In this document: in pieces, positions 8,792 to 21,265 of the stretch
Layout of the letters: each line of letters opens with the position of its first letter
Numbering within the stretch: the stretch's first letter is position 1
Virus record (IMG/VR): IMGVR_UViG_3300046787_000373
Location: 1 to 21,265 of that record
DNA: 21,265 bases
Strand: one strand, 5' to 3'
DNA from: a virus
Notes under the pieces: generated by a model
What the model saw: only the letters and a program-made list of their open reading frames with translations
Database searches by the model: none
What the model was told of the DNA's origin: nothing
Translations under genes and position numbers: made by a program

Positions 8792-10027
8792 ATGGGAATA
8801 CCTAAAAGAAAAAACAATATATCAGTTTATCTTGATAAAGATTTAACTGAGAGAAGACAAGAGTTATTAGATAAAATAACGAAATCTGACACGAACCTAC
8901 CCGACTCAATTTTACACGATGACTTGGATATGGGATTATTGGATTATGTTAAAAATAATTTTCAAGTTGTTAGTGAGGGAAAAACCATTCCTGTAATTAA
9001 TAAAATATTGACCATACAAAGATGGGGAGAGTTCTCGAATAATTGGGAATTCGTTGACGACGACGGGAATATGCAATTACCGTTTATTGCGGTGATAAGA
9101 AAACCTGATGTACAACCGGGAACAAATCCGTCAATACAAAGAACGGTCCCTGATAGACATCAATTCTTTTATGCTTCTGTACCAACATGGAACGGAACAC
9201 AAATGGGTGCTGACATTTATAAAATACCTCAACCCGTACCTGTAGATATTAGTTACGACGTAACAATCATATGTAATAAGTTTAGAGATTTAAATCGTTT
9301 CAATAAAAAAGTACTACAAAATTTCTCATCAAGACAAGATTATACAATGGTGAAAGGTCACTATATTCCAATCGTTTTAGATTCAATTGACGATAATAGT
9401 CCTATCGACACTATTGACGGTCGTAGATTTTACAGTCAGAATTATAAATTCACGATGTTAGGTTTTTTAATAGACTCAGAAGAATTTGAAGTTAAACCTG
9501 CTGTTAGTAGATTTTTCTTAATGAATGAATTTATAAAAGACAATAACTACGCTAAAAAATTCATTAATAAAGATGTTGACGTTACATTAATGACATTCAC
9601 ATCAGAGAACAATCAAACGACGTTTAGTGTTGGTGAAACTATTGGTATTTTATTTAGTGTTTCAGTTGATGGTCAAATTGTAATTCCCGATGTTAACTAT
9701 TTTCATGTCGCATATACGTCAAAGATAACATTTAATAACCCATTACCTGATGGAAGTATTGTTATAATATCATATTATAAAGGTAAAACAAATGCTGTAG
9801 TTGATAACTATGGTAAAATTCTCCAAATTTCTAGAGAAAGTTACACTTATAGTGGTGGTCCGGTTACATTTACCACAACAAACGAACTTACAAACATTAT
9901 TTGTGTTGACGTGAATGGTTTGGTTGAAACGGAAGGTGAGGGATTTGAAATTTCGGGAAGACAGGAATTTACATTATTAGGTATTCCCGGTATTGGGTCA
10001 TCAGTTAATATAACTTATTTATATTAA
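8792..10027 (+). CDS. Tail terminator / sheath-stabilising protein, gp15-like, with C-terminal repeat domains
   Basis: A 411-residue structural protein. Residues about 60-240 follow the T4 gp15 plan: KTIPVINKILTIQRW, a loop, then IPQPVPVDISYDVTIICNKF (145-164), where gp15 has a 'P.P..i.Yelsi.t.y' segment, then a helix and YIPIVLDSID and FTMLGFLID strands. gp15 caps the finished tail and joins it to the neck. T4 gp15 has about 272 residues; the extra C-terminal part holds two similar units of ~54 residues, at 276-329 (VSVDGQIVIPDVNYF ... GSIVIISYY) and 358-411 (VDVNGLVETEGEGF ... GSSVNITYL). These look like small beta domains common in phage appendages. The SD-like GGAG at 8779 is within the upstream coding sequence and may be fortuitous. 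The stop overlaps the convergent regulator gene by 4 bases. Confidence 0.6.
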   Translation: MGIPKRKNNISVYLDKDLTERRQELLDKITKSDTNLPDSILHDDLDMGLLDYVKNNFQVVSEGKTIPVINKILTIQRWGEFSNNWEFVDDDGNMQLPFIAVIRKPDVQPGTNPSIQRTVPDRHQFFYASVPTWNGTQMGADIYKIPQPVPVDISYDVTIICNKFRDLNRFNKKVLQNFSSRQDYTMVKGHYIPIVLDSIDDNSPIDTIDGRRFYSQNYKFTMLGFLIDSEEFEVKPAVSRFFLMNEFIKDNNYAKKFINKDVDVTLMTFTSENNQTTFSVGETIGILFSVSVDGQIVIPDVNYFHVAYTSKITFNNPLPDGSIVIISYYKGKTNAVVDNYGKILQISRESYTYSGGPVTFTTTNELTNIICVDVNGLVETEGEGFEISGRQEFTLLGIPGIGSSVNITYLY

Positions 10028-10308: not shown

Positions 10309-13158
10309 ATGGCAAATTCAAACAGAGTATTCGTTTCTCCAGGTGTCTACACATCAGAGAAGGATCTAACATTCGTAGCTCAAAGTGTTGGAGTTACAAC
10401 ATTAGGTTTAGTTGGTGAGACACTAAAAGGTCCCGCTTTCGAACCAATTTTAATTTCAAATTTTGACGAATTCAAAACATATTTTGGAGGTACATCACCT
10501 GAAAAGGACGGTGCCAATAACCCAAAATATGAATTAGCTTATGTGGCTAAATCATATCTTCAGGAGTCAAACCAACTATTCGTAACAAGAGTACTTGGAC
10601 TTACAGGATATAAACCAGTGAAAACATTCGGTATTAAAACTTTAGGAGGTGTTAACGTTGACTTAGTGTCAGTTCCAACAACTACTACAGGTACAACCGA
10701 CCCAACTTCATCTGCAACAATAACAGGAAGTACATTCTTTTCAGATTTAACAGGTAAAACCGCATCTGACGGTTTAACTATACCTGAAAGTATTGTATCA
10801 GGTACATATTCTCATAACGATTGGTTTGCAATTGGAGTTGTACCAACTTCATCAACAAGTGGTTTAACAGGTACAGAATTAATTTCTCCATTTAGTGGTA
10901 AAGTTTCTTCTGAAACAAATAACGGTAAAGAATGGTACAACACCTTCTTCACTAAAACAGGAGCAACTGATGCATCTATTGATGGTGTTTATTCATATTT
11001 GTTTGTTTACTCAACAGGTACAACTTCGTTTAGTACAACAAGATTTAAATACGGTGCAACATTAAACACAAATTATTCTGACGTTGTAGTTGCTGCATTG
11101 AGACCAAGAGGACATTATCAAGGTGAAACATTATCAATTGAAGTAACTGGTAATACAAGTTTCAGTTTAAGAGATGTAACGGGCATTGAATCTAACCCAA
11201 TGGGTGAATTCGTTATTAACGTAACAGGAACAACAGGTGGAGCAAAAGAATATACATGTTCATTAGATTCTACTTCAACAAAATACATTAACAAAGTTTT
11301 AGGTACAGAAGTGTTTGATAAAGGATATTCTGAATATCCAATTTATGCACATGAGGTATATCCTAACTTGGTTTCTTCAGCATTTAAAAGTGGAGAAATT
11401 AGAGGACTAAGTTTAACTCCTGTTTATAATAGTGAAGGTGACAACTTTAAAAAAGGTTGGGACACTACATTATCTCCAATGGTAGTTTCTGAAGTTCGAG
11501 GTGGGTCTGTTGCGGATTTATTTGAAGTAATTACTATTTCAGATGGTAACGCTGCTAACGTACAAGTTAAAGTTATGGTACAAAACATTAACATTGAAAC
11601 TGGTGAGTTTGATGTGTTAGTTAGAGATTTTAACGACACGGACGAAAATCAAGTTATTCTTGAGAAATTCACAAGATGTACTATGAATCCAGATTTACCG
11701 GGTTACGTTGCTAGAAAAATAGGTACAGCTGATGGAGAATTCCAATTAAATTCAAAATACATCATGTTAAACTTAGCGGAAAACGCGCCATCAGATGCGT
11801 TCCCTGCCGGTTTTAAAGGATTTATTAGTTCACAATTATCAGGTTCAACAACTTTAGGTAGTTTGGTTTACAAAACTGAATACTTCGACGCTGGTGATAC
11901 CATATACTATGACGCTGACGGTACACCTGTTTTAACAAACGGTGATAAAGTTAAGAGAGTATCATTAGGTCTTTCAAGTCAAGTAGGTTCACAATTTGAC
12001 GCTGACGTGTTTAAATTTAAAGGAACAGGTGCAACATTGAATACGTTTGGTTTCCACTTATCAGTTAACGCTGATGATATTGTTGATGTTAATAATAATA
12101 ACATTTATAAAACAACACCTTACGATTTAGAAGGAACAGATAAAGGTAAATTAGATAATATCAATTTCCGTAAATTTACATTCGCAGTTTGTGGTGGATT
12201 TGACGGTTTTGATATCTACAGAAATGTTAAAACATACGGAGATGGTTACATCTTTGGTAAAACAACATATAATGCGAGTGGATTATTTAGTTCAACTGTA
12301 GGAAACTCTGACTATTATGCTTACTTACAAGGTATTAATACTTTCTCTAACCCTGAAGCTATCGATATTAACGTATTCGCAACTCCGGGTATTAACTTTA
12401 TGGACCATAGTTCATTGACTTCACAAGCAATTGATATGGTTGAGAACGATAGAGCAGATTCACTTTATATCATTGGAGCACCTAACGTAGACACTGCGGA
12501 TGACGTTGTGAATAGTTTAGATGTTGTTTCATTAGATACTAACTACTCAGCAACATATTGGCCTTGGATTCAAGTTAGAGATACGGACAATGCAACACAA
12601 TTATATATTCCACCAACAGGTGAAGTATTGAAAAACATTGCGTTAACCGATAACGTTTCTTACCCATGGTTTGCAGTAGCGGGTTACTCAAGAGGTTTAG
12701 TAAACGCAATCAAAGCTAAAAAGAAGTTAACTCTTGATGAAAGAGATGAACTTTACAAAAACAGAATTAACCCAATTGCAACTTTCTCTGATACAGGTAC
12801 TATTATCTGGGGTAACAAAACGTTACAAGTTAGAGAATCTGCACTTGATAGAATCAACGTAAGAAGATTATTATTAAGAGCAAGAAAATTAATTTCAGCA
12901 GTGGCGGTAAGATTATTGTTTGAACAAAATGATGACCAAGTAAGACAAGAATTCTTGAGATTGGTTAATCCAATTCTTGAATCAATTAAGAAAGAAAGAG
13001 GTTTATTTGAATTTAAAGTTACAGTTTCTAACGACCCTGAAGACATCGATGCAAATACACTTAGAGGTAAAATCTACGTGAAACCAACTCGTTCTCTTGA
13101 ATTTATTGATTTAGAGTTCGTAATTACTCCAACAGGAGCTTCATTTGAGAACATTTAA
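10309..13158 (+). CDS. Tail sheath protein (T4 gp18-like), enlarged
   Basis: A 949-residue contractile sheath subunit. The N-terminus has the sheath signature VFVSPGVYTSEKD (7-19). The C-terminal ~250 residues match the T4 gp18 core: YIIGAPNV (720-727), PWFAVAGYSRGLVNA, LTLDERDELYKNRINPI, DRINVRRL (847-854), a VRLLFEQNDD helix region, and IYVKPTRSLEFIDLEFV (from 922), which forms the inter-subunit strand. Subunits polymerise around the tube and contract to drive injection. T4 gp18 has 659 residues; the extra length is in the middle (about 100-690), rich in Thr, Ser and Gly, probably outward-facing decoration. It has its own TATTTATA leader upstream and a strong terminator 17 bases downstream, so it is likely monocistronic and highly expressed. 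Confidence 0.93.
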   Translation: MANSNRVFVSPGVYTSEKDLTFVAQSVGVTTLGLVGETLKGPAFEPILISNFDEFKTYFGGTSPEKDGANNPKYELAYVAKSYLQESNQLFVTRVLGLTGYKPVKTFGIKTLGGVNVDLVSVPTTTTGTTDPTSSATITGSTFFSDLTGKTASDGLTIPESIVSGTYSHNDWFAIGVVPTSSTSGLTGTELISPFSGKVSSETNNGKEWYNTFFTKTGATDASIDGVYSYLFVYSTGTTSFSTTRFKYGATLNTNYSDVVVAALRPRGHYQGETLSIEVTGNTSFSLRDVTGIESNPMGEFVINVTGTTGGAKEYTCSLDSTSTKYINKVLGTEVFDKGYSEYPIYAHEVYPNLVSSAFKSGEIRGLSLTPVYNSEGDNFKKGWDTTLSPMVVSEVRGGSVADLFEVITISDGNAANVQVKVMVQNINIETGEFDVLVRDFNDTDENQVILEKFTRCTMNPDLPGYVARKIGTADGEFQLNSKYIMLNLAENAPSDAFPAGFKGFISSQLSGSTTLGSLVYKTEYFDAGDTIYYDADGTPVLTNGDKVKRVSLGLSSQVGSQFDADVFKFKGTGATLNTFGFHLSVNADDIVDVNNNNIYKTTPYDLEGTDKGKLDNINFRKFTFAVCGGFDGFDIYRNVKTYGDGYIFGKTTYNASGLFSSTVGNSDYYAYLQGINTFSNPEAIDINVFATPGINFMDHSSLTSQAIDMVENDRADSLYIIGAPNVDTADDVVNSLDVVSLDTNYSATYWPWIQVRDTDNATQLYIPPTGEVLKNIALTDNVSYPWFAVAGYSRGLVNAIKAKKKLTLDERDELYKNRINPIATFSDTGTIIWGNKTLQVRESALDRINVRRLLLRARKLISAVAVRLLFEQNDDQVRQEFLRLVNPILESIKKERGLFEFKVTVSNDPEDIDANTLRGKIYVKPTRSLEFIDLEFVITPTGASFENI

Positions 13159-13470: not shown

Positions 13471-13959
13471 ATGGCAGATTTACTAATGAAAATGCCGGTT
13501 CCTTACGAACCGAAAAGAGTTAACAGATTTATCGTTAGATTCCCATCATCTTTGGGTATCAACGAATGGTACGTAACTTCAGCGGCTAGACCGAGTGCAA
13601 AGATTAATTCAGTTGCAATTCCTTTCTTGAATACTTCAACTTACGTTGCTGGTAGATTCGAATGGAATGAAATAAGAATGACATTCAAAGACCCAATTGG
13701 TCCTTCAGCTTCTCAAGCTTTAATGGAATGGTTCCGTTTACACGCAGAATCAGTAACAGGTAGAATGGGATATGCTGCTGGATACAAAAAAGACATTGAA
13801 CTTGAAATGTTAGACCCAACAGGTGTTGTAGTTGAGAAATGGATTCTTCAAGGAACTTTCATTACTGACTTGAACTTCAACGAATTGGACTATTCAAGAG
13901 ACGATTTAGCATCTATCACATGTTCATTAAGAATGGATAGATGTATCCAAGTATTCTAA
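13471..13959 (+). CDS. Tail tube protein (T4 gp19-like)
   Basis: A 162-residue protein, essentially the length of T4 gp19 (163). It shows the tube-protein plan: an N-terminal arm, the strand NRFIVRFP (18-25), INEWYVTSAARPSAKIN (30-46) where gp19 homologues have a 'W.v..a..Ps' strand, WNEIRMTFKDP (65-75), a helix ALMEWFRLHAES (83-94), and C-terminal strands KDIELEMLDPTG, EKWILQGTFITDLNF and DLASITCSLRMD. Hexameric rings of this protein form the tube inside the sheath, through which DNA passes. It lies just after the sheath gene as in T4, but with its own promoter motif and terminator, which suits separate high-level expression. Confidence 0.92.
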   Translation: MADLLMKMPVPYEPKRVNRFIVRFPSSLGINEWYVTSAARPSAKINSVAIPFLNTSTYVAGRFEWNEIRMTFKDPIGPSASQALMEWFRLHAESVTGRMGYAAGYKKDIELEMLDPTGVVVEKWILQGTFITDLNFNELDYSRDDLASITCSLRMDRCIQVF

Positions 13960-14078: not shown

Positions 14079-14828
14079 ATGGAAGAATTTAGATTAGACC
14101 CCTCAATCGCTTACGATGTGGTCGTATTACCAACAAAAGGTATACATTATAAAAATAGAAAAAAATCTGTAAGAGTTGCCTATCTAACGGCATCCGATGA
14201 AAACATCCTATCTTCACCTAGCTTAATTGCAACGGGAACGGTAGTTGATGAACTACTAAAAAGAAAAATCTTAGACAAGGACCTACCAATTGATGAAATT
14301 GTTGAGGAAGATCGTCAAGCGATTTTAATCTTTTTAAGAAACACTGCATTTGGTTCTGAGTATAAAATTAGTGCCCTTGACCCAAAAACTGATAAAACAT
14401 TTTCATTTGAAATTGATTTAAGTGAAATTAAAGTAAAAGATTTCAATTTAACTGAAGACTCAAACGGTGAATATTCATACTATTTGGAAAAAAGTAAAGT
14501 TGAGATTTCATTTACGTTTTTAACTTTAACACAAGAAAAAGAAATTGATTCAATTAAAAAAAGTTGGAACGGTATCGGTGTTGCTCCTATTGTAACGAAA
14601 CAACTTGAAATGATGATTAAATCAGTAGGGGGGAATAGAGATTTATTAACTATTCGTAATTTTGTTGAAAACCTACCAATTAAAGATTCTCAAGATTTTA
14701 AAAAATTTATTAACGATAATAAACCGGGGTTGGATTTAACCCAAACTATTGAAACCCCGTCCGGAGAGACTATCCAAGTTGAAATTGGATTCGGGGTTGA
14801 GTTTTTTCGTCCTTTCTACGGATTATAA
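14079..14828 (+). CDS. gp26-like baseplate hub / tail-assembly chaperone protein
   Basis: A 249-residue soluble protein resembling the T4 gp26 baseplate family: LPTKGIHYKN (17-26), YLTASDENIL (35-44), a helix with VVDELLKRKI, EEDRQAILIFLRNTAFG (76-92), and an acidic EIDLSEIKVKDF segment. It lies between tube and tape-measure genes, where contractile and siphoviral tails encode an assembly chaperone in two lengths by frameshifting. The last 80 bases overlap a second open frame, and TTT TTT C at 14802-14808 sits seven codons before the stop (see the separate entry). The unshifted product ends EFFRPFYGL. The gp26 resemblance is by motif; the assembly role follows from position. Confidence 0.65.
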   Translation: MEEFRLDPSIAYDVVVLPTKGIHYKNRKKSVRVAYLTASDENILSSPSLIATGTVVDELLKRKILDKDLPIDEIVEEDRQAILIFLRNTAFGSEYKISALDPKTDKTFSFEIDLSEIKVKDFNLTEDSNGEYSYYLEKSKVEISFTFLTLTQEKEIDSIKKSWNGIGVAPIVTKQLEMMIKSVGGNRDLLTIRNFVENLPIKDSQDFKKFINDNKPGLDLTQTIETPSGETIQVEIGFGVEFFRPFYGL

Positions 14829-14961
14829 GAAAGGTCAATTAGACGAAATTTTATTTTTAGTTAAACGAGGATTCACATACGGCGATATTGTTAACATGCC
14901 AGTTTATATTCGACGTTATTATATAAATTATATTGTCGAAAAAGAAACGGGAAATGATTAA
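14749..14961 (+). CDS. Second-frame extension of the gp26-like protein, probably made by +1/-2 frameshifting
   Basis: This frame is +1 relative to the upstream gene and open from 14740 to the TAA at 14959. No ATG precedes its conserved-looking part; the only candidate starts are TTG at 14749, 14779, 14785 and 14797, while every other gene in the window starts with ATG. The downstream part reads YKKGQLDEILFLVKRGF, then YGDIVNMPVYIRRYYINYI and a charged tail, like a real helical domain. A shift at the T6 run (14802-14807) would add about 50 residues (VLSTDYKK...) after residue 243, giving a product of about 293-294 residues. Independent start at a TTG is the alternative. The tape-measure gene begins 17 bases after its stop. 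Confidence 0.6.
   Translation: MKPRPERLSKLKLDSGLSFFVLSTDYKKGQLDEILFLVKRGFTYGDIVNMPVYIRRYYINYIVEKETGND
14802..14807 (+). other. Candidate programmed frameshift site (T6)
   Basis: In the gp26-like frame the codons are GAG TTT TTT CGT CCT. A -2 slip on TTT re-pairs with TTT and continues TTC GTC CTT; a +1 skip of C continues GTC CTT. Both enter the second open frame. A -1 slip would reach a TAG at 14840 after 11 codons and is not supported. Phage Mu uses a -2 shift at the equivalent place. Confidence 0.5.
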
Positions 14962-14978: not shown

Positions 14979-16934
14979 ATGGCAGCAGATAATAAAAAAT
15001 TACAACAGTTAGCAAGAACTGACCCTGACGGATTTGAAACGTACTATCGTCAAAATGTTGATAGGAACGCGTCGGGCGCAACAATTGCGGCTAAACAATC
15101 TTATTGGAGAAGTGTTGATTTATCCACGTTGTCAACATCCTCTTCATCTTCCACCTCTTCTACATCGTCCGGTGCGTCAACTGCCGGTGACATGGCTCTC
15201 GCCGCGGAAACCGGTGGGGTTGGATTAGCAATCAAAAAAACATTTGGATTTCTCGATAACGCAATAAAAGGTACCGCCAATATTGCTGAACAATTTTATG
15301 ATACACAAATAGGTCAAGCGGACGCTCAGGGTTCAGATAAAGTTAAAAAATTATTTGACATTGTACAAAACGGTGGATTAAATCCCGTAAAACTACTTTC
15401 TGAGGGTATGGCTGCGGTAGGTGAGGAATTAATTAGTCAATTAAAAACCGAATCCGAATTACGAAGTGAAATTAATAGTAAGTCGATGCTTACGGGTCAA
15501 TTATCTGAAGACCTAAGAAAAGACATGGTTGAATCATCAATCGGAGCTGCGAGATATGGAATGTCGTTGGCTGACATTGGTGACCTATACGTTGGACTTA
15601 CAGAAAATTCAGGTAAATTTAGTTTAATTAATAAAGGTTTAATTGATACCGTAGTACCTGTGGCTAAGTCACTTAGTATGTCGATGAAGGAATTTGCCAA
15701 TACTATTAGCACGTTCGAAACTGTCGGTGCAGGTGCTGACCTTACAGTTAATAAAATTAGTACTGCAATTACTGATTCAGTAGCGTTAGGTTTAAACGCA
15801 AGAAAAATAACTGAATCTATGCAACAAAACATAGGTAAATTAAACGAATACGGATTTAAAAAGGGGATTGATGGGTTAAAAGAAATGACACAAAAATCTG
15901 CAGAATTTAGAATGAGTATGGATTCCGTGTTTTCAGTTGCTGAGAAAGTATTCAGTCCCGAAAAGGCATTAGACTTATCGGCAAACTTACAAGTTTTAGG
16001 TGGCGCAATTGGAGATTTCAACGACCCACTTAAATTAATGTACATGGCAACAAATAATGTGGAAGGATTACAAGACGCATTAATCGGAGCTGCCGGGTCG
16101 TTATCAACTTATAATCAAGAACAGGGAAGATTTGAAGTAACAGGAATTAATTTAAGAAAATCTAAAGAAATGGCGGACCAGTTCGGTATTTCAATGGGTG
16201 AATTAAATAAAATAGCAATCGCAGCTGCGGAAAGAACACAAGCATCGACTGCGTTGATGTCTTCAGGTTTAGTAATGAAAGAAGAAGATAGGGAATTTTT
16301 AACTAACCTTTCAAGAATGGAAGGTGGTGAAATGAAAATTACCGTACCTGAATCTTTAGCGAAGAAATTAGGTTTATCTGACACTAAAATTGCGTTAGAT
16401 GAATTAAAACCTGAAATGATGAAGGCGTTATTATCTAACAGAGAAGCATTTAAAGAAATGAGTCCCAAAGATATGGCGATGGCTCAATTAACGGAAACAC
16501 AACAAATGGCTCGAGACATGGGAGTCGTTGCCGCATATTATAGAGTAAGAGGCGCACAAATAATTAAAGGTGCGGCTAAAGGAATGGGTGGACCCGAATT
16601 CGAAAATCTACGTAAAACCATTTCAGATTATGCAAAAGATACGGTAAATAAACCAAGTGATTATGGTTTAGAAAAAAGATCGGAGAATAAGGCGAAGGAA
16701 GTGAGAGCAAATCCCATAGAATCAATAAGAGAATTTGGACGAGATTTAATTGATAAAGTTAAAGGTGACAAAACAACAGCATCAATCGAAACAAATCAAA
16801 AAGTCACACATGAATTTGTATTTGGTAGAAGCGACGCATTAATGGATTCTTGGAAACGAGAAATGGTAAGAGATACAAGTGTGGCTTCTAATTTTACTGT
16901 TACCAATAAAAACGAATATACTTCGCCAGCATAA
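14979..16934 (+). CDS. Tail tape-measure protein candidate (T4 gp29-like role)
   Basis: A 651-residue, mostly alpha-helical protein directly after the assembly-chaperone gene, the standard tape-measure position. Residues 49-68 form a Ser/Thr-rich linker (STLSTSSSSSTSSTSSGAST). The middle has long amphipathic helices without cysteine-rich or catalytic motifs, with segments such as ANLQVLGGAIGDFNDPLKLM and LRKSKEMADQFGISMGELN. The C-terminal ~120 residues are polar and basic, with a KRSENKAKEVR stretch. Size is close to T4 gp29 (590). At about 0.15 nm per helical residue it would set a tail of roughly 98 nm, similar to T4; this is an estimate. Tape measures determine tube length and are ejected with DNA. 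Another helical virion or internal protein is possible but less likely. Confidence 0.65.
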   Translation: MAADNKKLQQLARTDPDGFETYYRQNVDRNASGATIAAKQSYWRSVDLSTLSTSSSSSTSSTSSGASTAGDMALAAETGGVGLAIKKTFGFLDNAIKGTANIAEQFYDTQIGQADAQGSDKVKKLFDIVQNGGLNPVKLLSEGMAAVGEELISQLKTESELRSEINSKSMLTGQLSEDLRKDMVESSIGAARYGMSLADIGDLYVGLTENSGKFSLINKGLIDTVVPVAKSLSMSMKEFANTISTFETVGAGADLTVNKISTAITDSVALGLNARKITESMQQNIGKLNEYGFKKGIDGLKEMTQKSAEFRMSMDSVFSVAEKVFSPEKALDLSANLQVLGGAIGDFNDPLKLMYMATNNVEGLQDALIGAAGSLSTYNQEQGRFEVTGINLRKSKEMADQFGISMGELNKIAIAAAERTQASTALMSSGLVMKEEDREFLTNLSRMEGGEMKITVPESLAKKLGLSDTKIALDELKPEMMKALLSNREAFKEMSPKDMAMAQLTETQQMARDMGVVAAYYRVRGAQIIKGAAKGMGGPEFENLRKTISDYAKDTVNKPSDYGLEKRSENKAKEVRANPIESIREFGRDLIDKVKGDKTTASIETNQKVTHEFVFGRSDALMDSWKREMVRDTSVASNFTVTNKNEYTSPA

Positions 16935-16968: not shown

Positions 16969-19900
16969 ATGCCAAGTAACTTAGATTTTGATTCAACCAA
17001 GAGGTTTAGAGATTATATATTAGGTAAGACCTTAAATCAACCTAACGGTCCACAAACATATACAAGTGGAGCATATACTGTGCAAAATTTAAGTGACCTA
17101 CCAAACAGAGATTTGGGTAACGTTGACGACAATAGAGTTAACGATTTAATGCAAATCAACAACACAAACACATTTAAACCAACAGAATTCTTTGTAAACG
17201 ATACATTAAATACTTTACCAAGGAAGGCGAATTTATCTTTGTATCCATATTTTACATTCAATAACCATAACTTAATTGGTATAATGGGTTCTGAAAATAA
17301 CTCAACTGAATCTGAATTATATAAGTTTGCATCGTCGTACATAAAATTAGACCCTAACGGTCCTGTACTTTCAAGAATTGCTAGAAACATAGATAAGGCG
17401 ACAAATGGTAAAGTTAGATTATTAGATGCGTTAAATGGTAATACCACAACCGCCATTAATATTATAACAGGTAGAGAACCTTTAGTTGAAGCGAACTACG
17501 ATATCACAGTAGCAAAAACGTTACCGGGTAAAGCAATTGATTTTTTACAAACGGTCTCGGGAGTTGAATTTCCTTTTAGTGAAATCCCTGGCGATTATTT
17601 AAGTAACCCGTCGAATCCAATAAACTATAGACCAACAGCATCGACTGAAGTTGGTAAATTATGGCAAGACGTTACGGGTGTTTTAGGTTCATTAGTTGGT
17701 ATCCAAAGAAGACCTAAATTATCAAGAAAACCTTCCGATTTGTTTATTGAACATATGGGTCAAGGTCAAAAAAATGCGTTATTCCATAACTTATCGTTTT
17801 CAAAATACGCACCGAATTATACCACAACTGCAAGGTCACAGAATACATCAAAAATATTTAATTTTGTTGATAAAACCGCACAAGGTATAAAATCATTATT
17901 AGGTACTGAAGCACCTGCAGGAGTTGCATATATTGGTGACGATAGAGGTAATGATGTAAAATACGCAATGAATGACTTCAACGACAGACCGGTGAGAGGT
18001 AGTTATTATCTTTCATTAATGTTTGACGAAGTATCAGCTAATTTATTCCAAAAAAGTAAAAACATCACTGAAGGAGGTTCTATTGGTGGTAATTTAACTT
18101 GGACATCGAAAAATTCAAAAAATAAATTAGGTCAACATAATGCTGAATGGTCGGGAGAAAGTAGTATATTACAAGAAACACTTTCAACTAAATATGGTTT
18201 TAGAGAAGATTCAATTTTAGGTCACACTCAAGAAATATTAGATTCGATGCCGTCCGATGGTGGTGCGGCACGTTCACATGTTGCCAATGTAATTGACCAA
18301 ACAAGTAGAGTTTTCGGTGAAGGTGATTTAATGATTTCAAGAGGTTCGGCCGTTAAATTTATTGATAAATTCTCAGGTACTGAAAGTGGTGTTGAATATT
18401 GTAGAGTATGGACTAAAGATAGGTCATACCTTAATTACTCGGACACCATGAAAAGAACTGCCAACATTAGAAAATACGATGGTAGTGTAATGGGTGGTCA
18501 AAGTAGACCATGGAATTTAAACATCGCACCAATGTCAAATGGTAAAAAATCATTTGACCAATCAACAAACATTTTTAATAACTATCCATACGGTGGAGGA
18601 TTTTACGCCAAAAAATATATGTTCTCAATTGAGAATTTAGCTTGGAAAACATCTAATACTGACGGATTTAGAGTTACGGATTTACCCGCTTGTGAAAAGG
18701 GTAGTAATGGTGGACGTGTTATGTGGTTCCCACCATATGATTTAAAAGTATCTGAACAAAACAGTGCAAGATGGGAAGAGAATTCATTTTTAGGAAGACC
18801 CGAACCAATTTACACATATCAAAATACATCAAGAACAGGTCAAGTTTCATTTAAAGTTGTGGTTGACCACCCAAGTATTTTAAATTTATTGGTAAGAGAA
18901 CATTTTAAAGGAATGTCAGATGAAGAGTCAGACAACTACATTAATGCGTTTTTTGCCGGTTGTGTTGATTTAGATTTTTATTCTTTAATTCAGACGTACA
19001 CTACGTTAGATAGTGACGATATTAAAAGAATAAAAGAATACCTTAATGCGGGTAAAGATAAACAAACCATAAAAAAATACAAGTACGTTACTGAACAGGT
19101 TGAAACAAAACAAAATGACACTAATGGAAACAAAACTATCCAACCAGAACCTTTTGACGATATTTTTTATTTTCCAAATGACGTACCTAAATTTAACATT
19201 AATAACAAATCGGTTGCTAATAGTAACTACGGTGTAATAAAGGCAGAATACTTAGTGCAGAAAAACAAATTCATTTCTGACTTAGATGCCGATTTAACAG
19301 CTTTACTATCAGATAACAGTGCCGATGCCGTTAAAGACATTAAAACTATTTTTAACAAAACAAAAGCGGAAGTGTTACCTATAAGTGGAACGTCTATTAA
19401 TTTAGTTAAAGATAAAATTTCGGCAGGTTTTGATACGGTTGAAAAAAACTATAATGATTTTGCTGCGAAAGTAGAACAACTTAAAAATGACATTTCAGGT
19501 AAAACTGTAACTGAAGCAGAATTAAGAATTGTAAGTTCAACCTCTGAAGTTGCAAACGATAAATATAATTTTTACTTAGGGGTTAGAAGAGGATATAGTA
19601 TTCTTTCTGAAACGTTATCTAAATTATCCAATGGAATAACAATAGATGAAAAATTCATTAATTGGTTTACGGTTGATTACTTAAAACAATTTGAGAAAAC
19701 AGGACTTACAAATGCGGGTCCATTAAAATATCCATTTAGAGATTTAGGTTACGATGTTGAAGGTTCATTAAATGTGTTTTTTACCACTACAGGTGAAAAT
19801 ACTGTACTTTCAAACGGAGGTAGTGAAACTAACTTAAATTGTAAACAAGTTATTCACACTAAAACTGGTTTAAAAGACGAGGCACCTGTTGCGTTCTTCT

Positions 19901-21265
19901 GTAGACAAGCGAATGTAAAATTAAAATATAATAAAATCGATAAACCACAAGATATTGTGGTTAAAATACCAAAAATAAAAGTAGAACCAGATGGTGAAAC
20001 CACAACAGGTGGAACACCAAAACCATCTATTGATGTAATGAAGAGAATTATAATGAAGACTCTTTCTGAATGTCACTACTTTAAAAAATTAGAGGAAGAT
20101 TCACCTGTGGCGTTTAAATCATTGACTGAAAAATTAAAATATTTTCACCCTGGTTTCCACTCAACCACACCTGAAGGATTAAATAGTAGATTAACTTTCT
20201 TATTACAATGTGTAAGACCCGGTGATACTATCCCTATTAAGGGTTTATCTGACAATACAGACGTTGGTGCAAGAAATACTACATTTGGTCCACCACCAAT
20301 ATGTGTGTTAAGAATTGGGGATTTCTACCACTCTAAAATCGTTATTAGAGACGTTAACATAAGTTACGACGATAGTCCTTGGGATTTAAATCCGGAGGGT
20401 ATTGGTGTACAACCAATGATTGCAACGGTAACAATGCAAATTGCGTTTATTGGAGGACAAGGTTTAGAAAGACCGGTGGAAAGATTACAAAATGCGTTAT
20501 CTTCAAATTTCTTTGCAAATACTGAAATGTTTGATGAGAGATCACAATCGACAGCAACAACAATTGGTGGTGAGGATAGAGAAAAATTCACTAAAGAATT
20601 TTTAGAAGAATTACAAAGAAAACCGTCATTCCAAGAACCAATAGAGAACCCAAATCCCGCAACAGTGACTGAGGGTACGTATATTGGTAAGTTAGTAGGT
20701 ACAAAGTTAAATTATGATGACAATATAAACATGGTATATAGTTCAATTGGACAATACTTTAATGTTTACCAATCAACATATAATGAAATAGTTAAAAAAT
20801 ACGGTTTAAAATTGGGTAGTTTATTTTTCTCACCAACGTATAGAAAGATAAAAGACTTGGAAGTGTATAGTCAAAGTAACCAATCAACACCACCTAAAAT
20901 TGAAATATTAGGACAATATGACCCAATAAAAGATTTATCTTTTTATTCAAGAGGTTTCAAGGCGGCGATGGAAAGTAAAATTGAGTCAGTAGATTTGACA
21001 ACGTTAATTGGTTTTAATGAAGGATTAAAGTCAGAATCGGCGATTGTTAACTCAAACAACATATTAAAACCATTTGTAAAGAAATTTATTAATGAAACAA
21101 TTGACGGGTTTACCGAAATAAAGTCAATAAAAAATTTGGAATCGGTAAGAGACGGAATTATATCGGCAATTGATAATGTTAACTACCTTGTTAATTACGT
21201 ACATGACGGTCAAGTTAGTGGGAAGACATTTACACAAGCAAACTTATCAGGTTACACATATGATA
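16969..21265 (+). CDS. Very large tail/baseplate structural protein (3' end outside window)
   Basis: The frame starting MPSNLDFDSTKRFRDYI is open for 1432 codons and runs off the right edge. There is no signal peptide or membrane segment. The N-terminal ~700 residues are a mix of beta and loop regions with many Asn, Ser and Gly. Residues about 770-850 are helical and may be coiled coil (VEKNYNDFAAKVEQLKNDIS). A distinctive region at about 1100-1170 has FGPPPICVLRIGDFYHSK, VNISYDDSPWDLNPEG and a strand ending QIAFIGGQ. This 'gd....i..v.....d..pWd......P....v...f.fig' pattern recalls domains of T4-like baseplate and tube-initiator proteins such as gp48, gp53 and gp54. Position after the tape measure supports a baseplate or hub role. 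Size far exceeds those T4 proteins, suggesting a fusion of several baseplate functions. No catalytic motif was recognised. Confidence 0.6.
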   Translation, partial: MPSNLDFDSTKRFRDYILGKTLNQPNGPQTYTSGAYTVQNLSDLPNRDLGNVDDNRVNDLMQINNTNTFKPTEFFVNDTLNTLPRKANLSLYPYFTFNNHNLIGIMGSENNSTESELYKFASSYIKLDPNGPVLSRIARNIDKATNGKVRLLDALNGNTTTAINIITGREPLVEANYDITVAKTLPGKAIDFLQTVSGVEFPFSEIPGDYLSNPSNPINYRPTASTEVGKLWQDVTGVLGSLVGIQRRPKLSRKPSDLFIEHMGQGQKNALFHNLSFSKYAPNYTTTARSQNTSKIFNFVDKTAQGIKSLLGTEAPAGVAYIGDDRGNDVKYAMNDFNDRPVRGSYYLSLMFDEVSANLFQKSKNITEGGSIGGNLTWTSKNSKNKLGQHNAEWSGESSILQETLSTKYGFREDSILGHTQEILDSMPSDGGAARSHVANVIDQTSRVFGEGDLMISRGSAVKFIDKFSGTESGVEYCRVWTKDRSYLNYSDTMKRTANIRKYDGSVMGGQSRPWNLNIAPMSNGKKSFDQSTNIFNNYPYGGGFYAKKYMFSIENLAWKTSNTDGFRVTDLPACEKGSNGGRVMWFPPYDLKVSEQNSARWEENSFLGRPEPIYTYQNTSRTGQVSFKVVVDHPSILNLLVREHFKGMSDEESDNYINAFFAGCVDLDFYSLIQTYTTLDSDDIKRIKEYLNAGKDKQTIKKYKYVTEQVETKQNDTNGNKTIQPEPFDDIFYFPNDVPKFNINNKSVANSNYGVIKAEYLVQKNKFISDLDADLTALLSDNSADAVKDIKTIFNKTKAEVLPISGTSINLVKDKISAGFDTVEKNYNDFAAKVEQLKNDISGKTVTEAELRIVSSTSEVANDKYNFYLGVRRGYSILSETLSKLSNGITIDEKFINWFTVDYLKQFEKTGLTNAGPLKYPFRDLGYDVEGSLNVFFTTTGENTVLSNGGSETNLNCKQVIHTKTGLKDEAPVAFFCRQANVKLKYNKIDKPQDIVVKIPKIKVEPDGETTTGGTPKPSIDVMKRIIMKTLSECHYFKKLEEDSPVAFKSLTEKLKYFHPGFHSTTPEGLNSRLTFLLQCVRPGDTIPIKGLSDNTDVGARNTTFGPPPICVLRIGDFYHSKIVIRDVNISYDDSPWDLNPEGIGVQPMIATVTMQIAFIGGQGLERPVERLQNALSSNFFANTEMFDERSQSTATTIGGEDREKFTKEFLEELQRKPSFQEPIENPNPATVTEGTYIGKLVGTKLNYDDNINMVYSSIGQYFNVYQSTYNEIVKKYGLKLGSLFFSPTYRKIKDLEVYSQSNQSTPPKIEILGQYDPIKDLSFYSRGFKAAMESKIESVDLTTLIGFNEGLKSESAIVNSNNILKPFVKKFINETIDGFTEIKSIKNLESVRDGIISAIDNVNYLVNYVHDGQVSGKTFTQANLSGYTYD

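Follow-up and report, generated by a model that had tools for sequence, protein, structure and literature searches.

A phage gp26-like gene with a second open frame: a tail assembly chaperone probably made in two lengths by +1 frameshifting at UUU_CGU with the aid of an upstream hairpin

A viral DNA stretch of 21,265 nt (IMG/VR record IMGVR_UViG_3300046787_000373, positions 1 to 21,265; hereafter the window) was analysed at a gp26-like gene that is overlapped at its 3' end by a second open frame (Table 1). Sequence comparison makes it highly probable that two lengths of a tail assembly chaperone are made from this locus, the longer one arising by a +1 slip at UUU_CGU that an upstream RNA hairpin probably aids. 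Most ribosomes would terminate at position 14828 and yield the short form. Some ribosomes, holding peptidyl-tRNA-Phe on UUU 14805-14807 while CGU awaits in the A site, would slip forward onto UUC 14806-14808, continue with the codon GUC, which gives the junction EFF-VL, and read the second frame into a long form of 293 aa with a helical C-terminal domain of about 50 aa. Once the ribosome has passed, the hairpin would fold again, which would promote the +1 slip and curb wasteful -1 slipping on the U run. On the model of lambda G/GT, coating of the tape measure may fall to the short form and recruitment of tail tube subunits to the long one. We infer the shift itself and its efficiency, as well as what the hairpin does and the function as a chaperone.

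Table 1. Features of the putative chaperone locus and its flanks (window coordinates)
Feature	Position	Strand	Remarks
Tail tube gene (context)	13471..13959	+	phrog_4542 tail tube, E 7.7e-25
gp26-like gene	14079..14828	+	249 aa; putative short chaperone (TAC-N)
Second (+1) open frame	14740..14961	+	conserved part 14803-14958, predicted C-terminal domain of the long form (TAC-C)
Upstream RNA hairpin	14754..14797	+	predicted; ends 4 nt ahead of T6
Hairpin outer stem	14754-14759/14792-14797	+	ACCCCR pairs with YGGGGT
Hairpin inner stem	14772-14777/14785-14790	+	RYCCAA pairs with TTGGRT
Shift site UUU_UUU_CGU	14802..14810	+	candidate; UUU_Y site in 190 +1 relatives; UUU_Ynn known as +1-prone
651-aa ORF (context)	14979..16934	+	tape measure or tail protein, by position only

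The gp26-like protein belongs to PF12322, T4_baseplate (E 4.5e-9; 36.8 bits against a curated cut-off of 24.5), and matched the baseplate hub family phrog_150 with an E of 4e-11. A tail tube gene was present upstream in all 75 close relatives with room for it, and 73 of 75 had a homologue of the downstream 651-aa ORF. Close relatives keep the order tail tube, gp26-like gene, second frame and downstream tail gene. The 651-aa ORF had no Pfam match and nothing significant among annotated tape measures; an annotated tape measure lies directly downstream in the phages immuto and LIS04. The flanks of a chaperone pair, tail tube and tape measure, were thus found, the tape measure side of the window by position only. 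An open-ended ORF of at least 1432 aa (16969-21264) follows the putative tape measure gene, and either of the two could encode this protein, as neither ORF has a match among annotated tape measures. An AF2 model of the short form reached a pLDDT of 88. In the PDB it came closest to 2ob9, the tail assembly chaperone of HK97 (Z 4.8, 90/104 residues), a weak match that stood above the rest; a Foldseek search of the model against the PDB gave no significant chain, with the HK97 chaperone at E 2.5. Gene position and the homology of T4 gp26 and gp51 support the initial annotation in its assignment of a chaperone pair to the interval from the tail tube to the tape measure gene, and the short and long forms would act as such by analogy with the known pairs. 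Further observations concern other parts of the window. The tail sheath (10309-13158, 949 aa) has sheath domains only at residues 664-940, so it carries a very long N-terminal or inserted region. A Shine-Dalgarno sequence is missing from nearly all window genes, as in Bacteroidota phages, the gene at 8792 with AGAGGAG being an exception. No tRNA genes were found in the window.

The second frame overlaps the gp26-like ORF by 89 nt and runs 133 nt past its stop, as the initial annotation had it. Each of the 80 nearest relatives, which are 71-96% identical, has it at +1. Altogether 190 relatives were classified as +1, all with the same frame relation (71 after removal of redundancy), and a sequencing error was ruled out by this recurrence in 190 loci. 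The arrangement also occurs in distant annotated phages, namely Flavobacterium immuto, Microcystis Mel-JY01, Listeria LIS04, Bacillus SP-15, Streptococcus GXN1 and Rhodothermus RM378. Past the gp26 stop the pN/pS ratio was 0.25 in the +1 frame versus 2.8 and 1.4 in the other two frames; the gp26 body had 0.30. This low ratio indicates that the second frame evolves as a protein, and by this sequence measure both frames are coding. In one locus (L014) a premature stop cuts the second frame short, close to the contig end.

Translation of the second frame as a separate gene, started at TTG or in some relatives at an ATG by reinitiation or coupling, was weighed against frameshifting. The window has in-frame TTG codons and, as had been noted, no ATG ahead of the second-frame domain, and a part of the window clade has a second-frame ATG at -11, so that some of the product could also come from internal initiation in these relatives. 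However, 25 of the 71 non-redundant loci offer no ATG, GTG or TTG in the interval that begins at the upstream stop and reaches 40 nt beyond the slip codon, in many loci the +1 frame is blocked by a stop codon lying as close as 5 nt ahead of the slip codon, and in L050, L057 and L066 the second frame is without any start codon; where no start codon is available, independent initiation is impossible. The strict retention of UUU would also be left unexplained. ATG-started second genes, which the initial annotation had named as refuting evidence, were indeed found, but in one small side branch: in L262 (2141-2480) and L267 (2129-2470) the second domain is a separate gene in another frame, with its ATG just past the gp26 stop. 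L262 has no shift site and in this branch the site is lost or unproductive, so these genes do not refute the remaining loci. A separate gene is therefore very improbable. Slippage of the RNA polymerase on T6, giving mixed mRNAs, has the homopolymer in its favour; its likelihood is negligible, as relatives with just three to four consecutive T (TTC TTT CGT, TTC TTT TGG) keep the arrangement and six T are short for such slippage. An internal Shine-Dalgarno element was rejected as well: GGGG stands 8 nt ahead of the slip codon in the window clade and is absent from the other +1 clades, and the general lack of Shine-Dalgarno sequences in window genes weakens this reading further. The kept +1 relation, the kept UUU, the startless relatives and the pN/pS of 0.25 together make frameshifting into the second frame very likely; on this comparative evidence the long form arises by a frameshift, in agreement with what had been proposed.

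As to the direction of the slip, the initial annotation had left +1 and -2 side by side and had taken T6 (14802-14807, seven codons ahead of the gp26-like stop) as the slippery element. A P-site UUU was found in 190/190 +1 loci, with a chance probability of 2e-9 for the 71 non-redundant loci given the TTT/TTC usage of the same genes; this count is partly built in, because the slip codon was assigned by rule, as whichever in-frame TTT with C or T after it came last within the second frame. Independent support for the conservation of TTT comes from a codon-level alignment: Phe codons 242 and 243 are both TTT in all 43 unique window-clade sequences, and other invariant Phe codons mostly vary between TTT and TTC. 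The codon preceding the slip codon varies among +1 loci (TTT, TTC, CTT, AGC, AAC or GAG), so T6 is not needed; the codon that follows is mostly TGG, CGT or CGC. A -2 shift as in Mu, with the P-site UUU moving back two bases to give EFFFVL, is permitted by re-pairing on T6 in the window and in 62 of the 71 non-redundant loci, and such shifts are used by Mu and others according to a review (PMC5009743). Re-pairing at -2 is impossible in the other nine, which come from several lineages (TTC TTT CGT, TTC TTT TGG, AAC TTT CTA and others) and keep the +1 relation, with the caveat that in one of them (L085) an alternative UUU one codon later could still re-pair. At +1, re-pairing onto UUU or UUC is possible in 71/71, with the conserved UUU followed by a pyrimidine in every case. 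This common feature is a known +1 site: UUU_Ynn is especially prone to +1 shifting in bacteria (PMC5009743), and the window site UUU_CGU fits this class by its sequence. A -2 shift is thus very improbable, and of the earlier pair of readings +1 is the favoured one. T6 is present in the window as described. Relatives that lost it and kept the second frame, a case that the initial annotation had set as a refuting one, do occur (TTC TTT, CTT TTT); they remove only the -2 reading and the role of T6 as the key, and leave UUU plus pyrimidine as the conserved site.

Just upstream of the shift site, at codons 228-239, synonymous codon choice was unusually constrained, and a hairpin that the initial annotation did not mention was found at 14754-14797. 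Its pairing is kept at 100% of cells in 24 haplotypes. In nine haplotypes an outer pair has A-U in place of G-C, each change falling on a third codon position, and a second pair covaries from U-A to C-G; these are few independent changes among close relatives. None of 500 shuffles reached the pairing or the covariation score of the hairpin, and slid controls paired at 58% or less. Across the 71 non-redundant loci the 36 nt upstream of +1 sites were more structured than synonymous shuffles (mean z -1.03, p 1.6e-10) versus z -0.07 to -0.26 in windows further upstream, and versus z -0.10 upstream of -1 sites (+1 against -1, p 5e-5). The hairpin was not visible in several single +1 loci (e.g., L087, L098). 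Structure as a downstream stimulator was not significant, neither at +1 sites (z -0.34, p 0.065) nor at -1 sites (z -0.38, p 0.11), and an Rfam search gave no match. Upstream hairpins beside shift sites stimulate +1 and attenuate -1 shifting (PMC3639245, PMC6321510), which has been demonstrated on 70S ribosomes (PMC6321510). By analogy, refolding of the hairpin probably contributes to setting the slip at the window site.

The relatives include lineages with another shift direction. The second frame lies at -1 in the uncultured jumbo phage LR756511 and in Agrobacterium phage Atu_ph07, and an in-frame T TTT TTC was present in all 66 loci of the -1 group. U_UUU_UUC sites for -1 were observed in a group that includes jumbo phages (most of L101-L171, L088 and L091), in which many gp26-like ORFs have 330-400 aa and an extra N-terminal stretch. 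Cyanophage DSL-LC02 (L272:3543-3863) and the Aeromonas phages Ah1 (L273:2565-2878) and phiAS5 (L276:2595-2878), Straboviridae, have a -1 frame with U_UUU_UUC at the gp26 end, which is unannotated or labelled hypothetical. T4 gp26 and gp51 are homologous (E 3e-6); gene 26 shares an overlap with gene 25 and lacks a second frame. In a profile comparison the C-terminal tails of gp51-type proteins matched the domain encoded by the second frame (E 3.6e-5, probability 71). By these matches gp51 would be a gp26 homologue plus a tail related to the second-frame domain, which fits a short/long pair of the lambda type. Conceivably the chaperone family has switched shift direction between lineages, some shifting +1 at UUU_YGN next to a natural hairpin that refolds upstream and others -1 at U_UUU_UUC, where such a hairpin is missing; we lean slightly against this. 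If true, the phage gene would be a natural example, on bacterial ribosomes, of frameshift direction being determined by a 5' hairpin. Since +1 and -1 shift sites both occur naturally within one gene family, the idea that the hairpin sets the direction is directly testable on bacterial ribosomes. Existing phage records omit the second frame or label it hypothetical, and the analysis corrects the annotation for this large phage group.

The T4-like chaperones belong to the same family as the window locus (PF12322, phrog_150) and follow the same short/long logic. Vladimirov and colleagues reportedly describe several T4-like groups that keep the frameshift, while T4 would carry the short and the long form on separate genes, 26 and 51. 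A title by Vladimirov, Gautam and Davidson on tail assembly chaperones of T4-like phages (Virology 2022) is cited in PMC10885494, and PMC12846349 refers to the work as a source for poly-T signals of -1 frameshifting in the chaperone genes of T4-like phages. With T4-like chaperones published in 2022 (Vladimirov et al.), the novelty that had been claimed for a link between gp26-like proteins and the classical chaperone pair was not borne out. The central idea had been established before; what may be new are the +1 direction, the shift site of the type UUU_YGN and the hairpin ahead of it. In the T4-like phages the signals cited in the literature are poly-T and -1, and T4 itself has two genes, in contrast to the +1 shift at UUU_YGN with an upstream hairpin proposed for the window. 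An older review describes the G-T shift as conserved except in T4 (PMC5009743).

As proposed for the window locus, lambda gpG/gpGT and P2 E/E+E' make two lengths from one start; the shift occurs close to the 3' end, and the gene is flanked by those for tail tube and tape measure. The shift of P2 is -1. No sequence match was found between the N-domain of the window protein and the lambda and P2 chaperone families. Lambda likewise uses -1, unlike the +1 predicted for the window locus; its short form binds the tape measure, its long form binds the tube as well, and neither product is in the virion (PMC5009743). UUU_CGU is also the core of the influenza PA-X site UCC_UUU_CGU according to that review (PMC5009743), so the PA-X cassette matches the window clade in its core. 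PA-X and yopN-tyeA, both with UUU_Ynn +1 sites, are genes unrelated to the window locus, and the accessible descriptions of them include no upstream hairpin. The hairpins of bidirectional frameshifting (PMC3639245, PMC6321510) stand beside the shift site, favour +1 and attenuate -1, as proposed for the window; these are a coronavirus attenuator and designed reporters, whereas that of the window would be a natural phage element.
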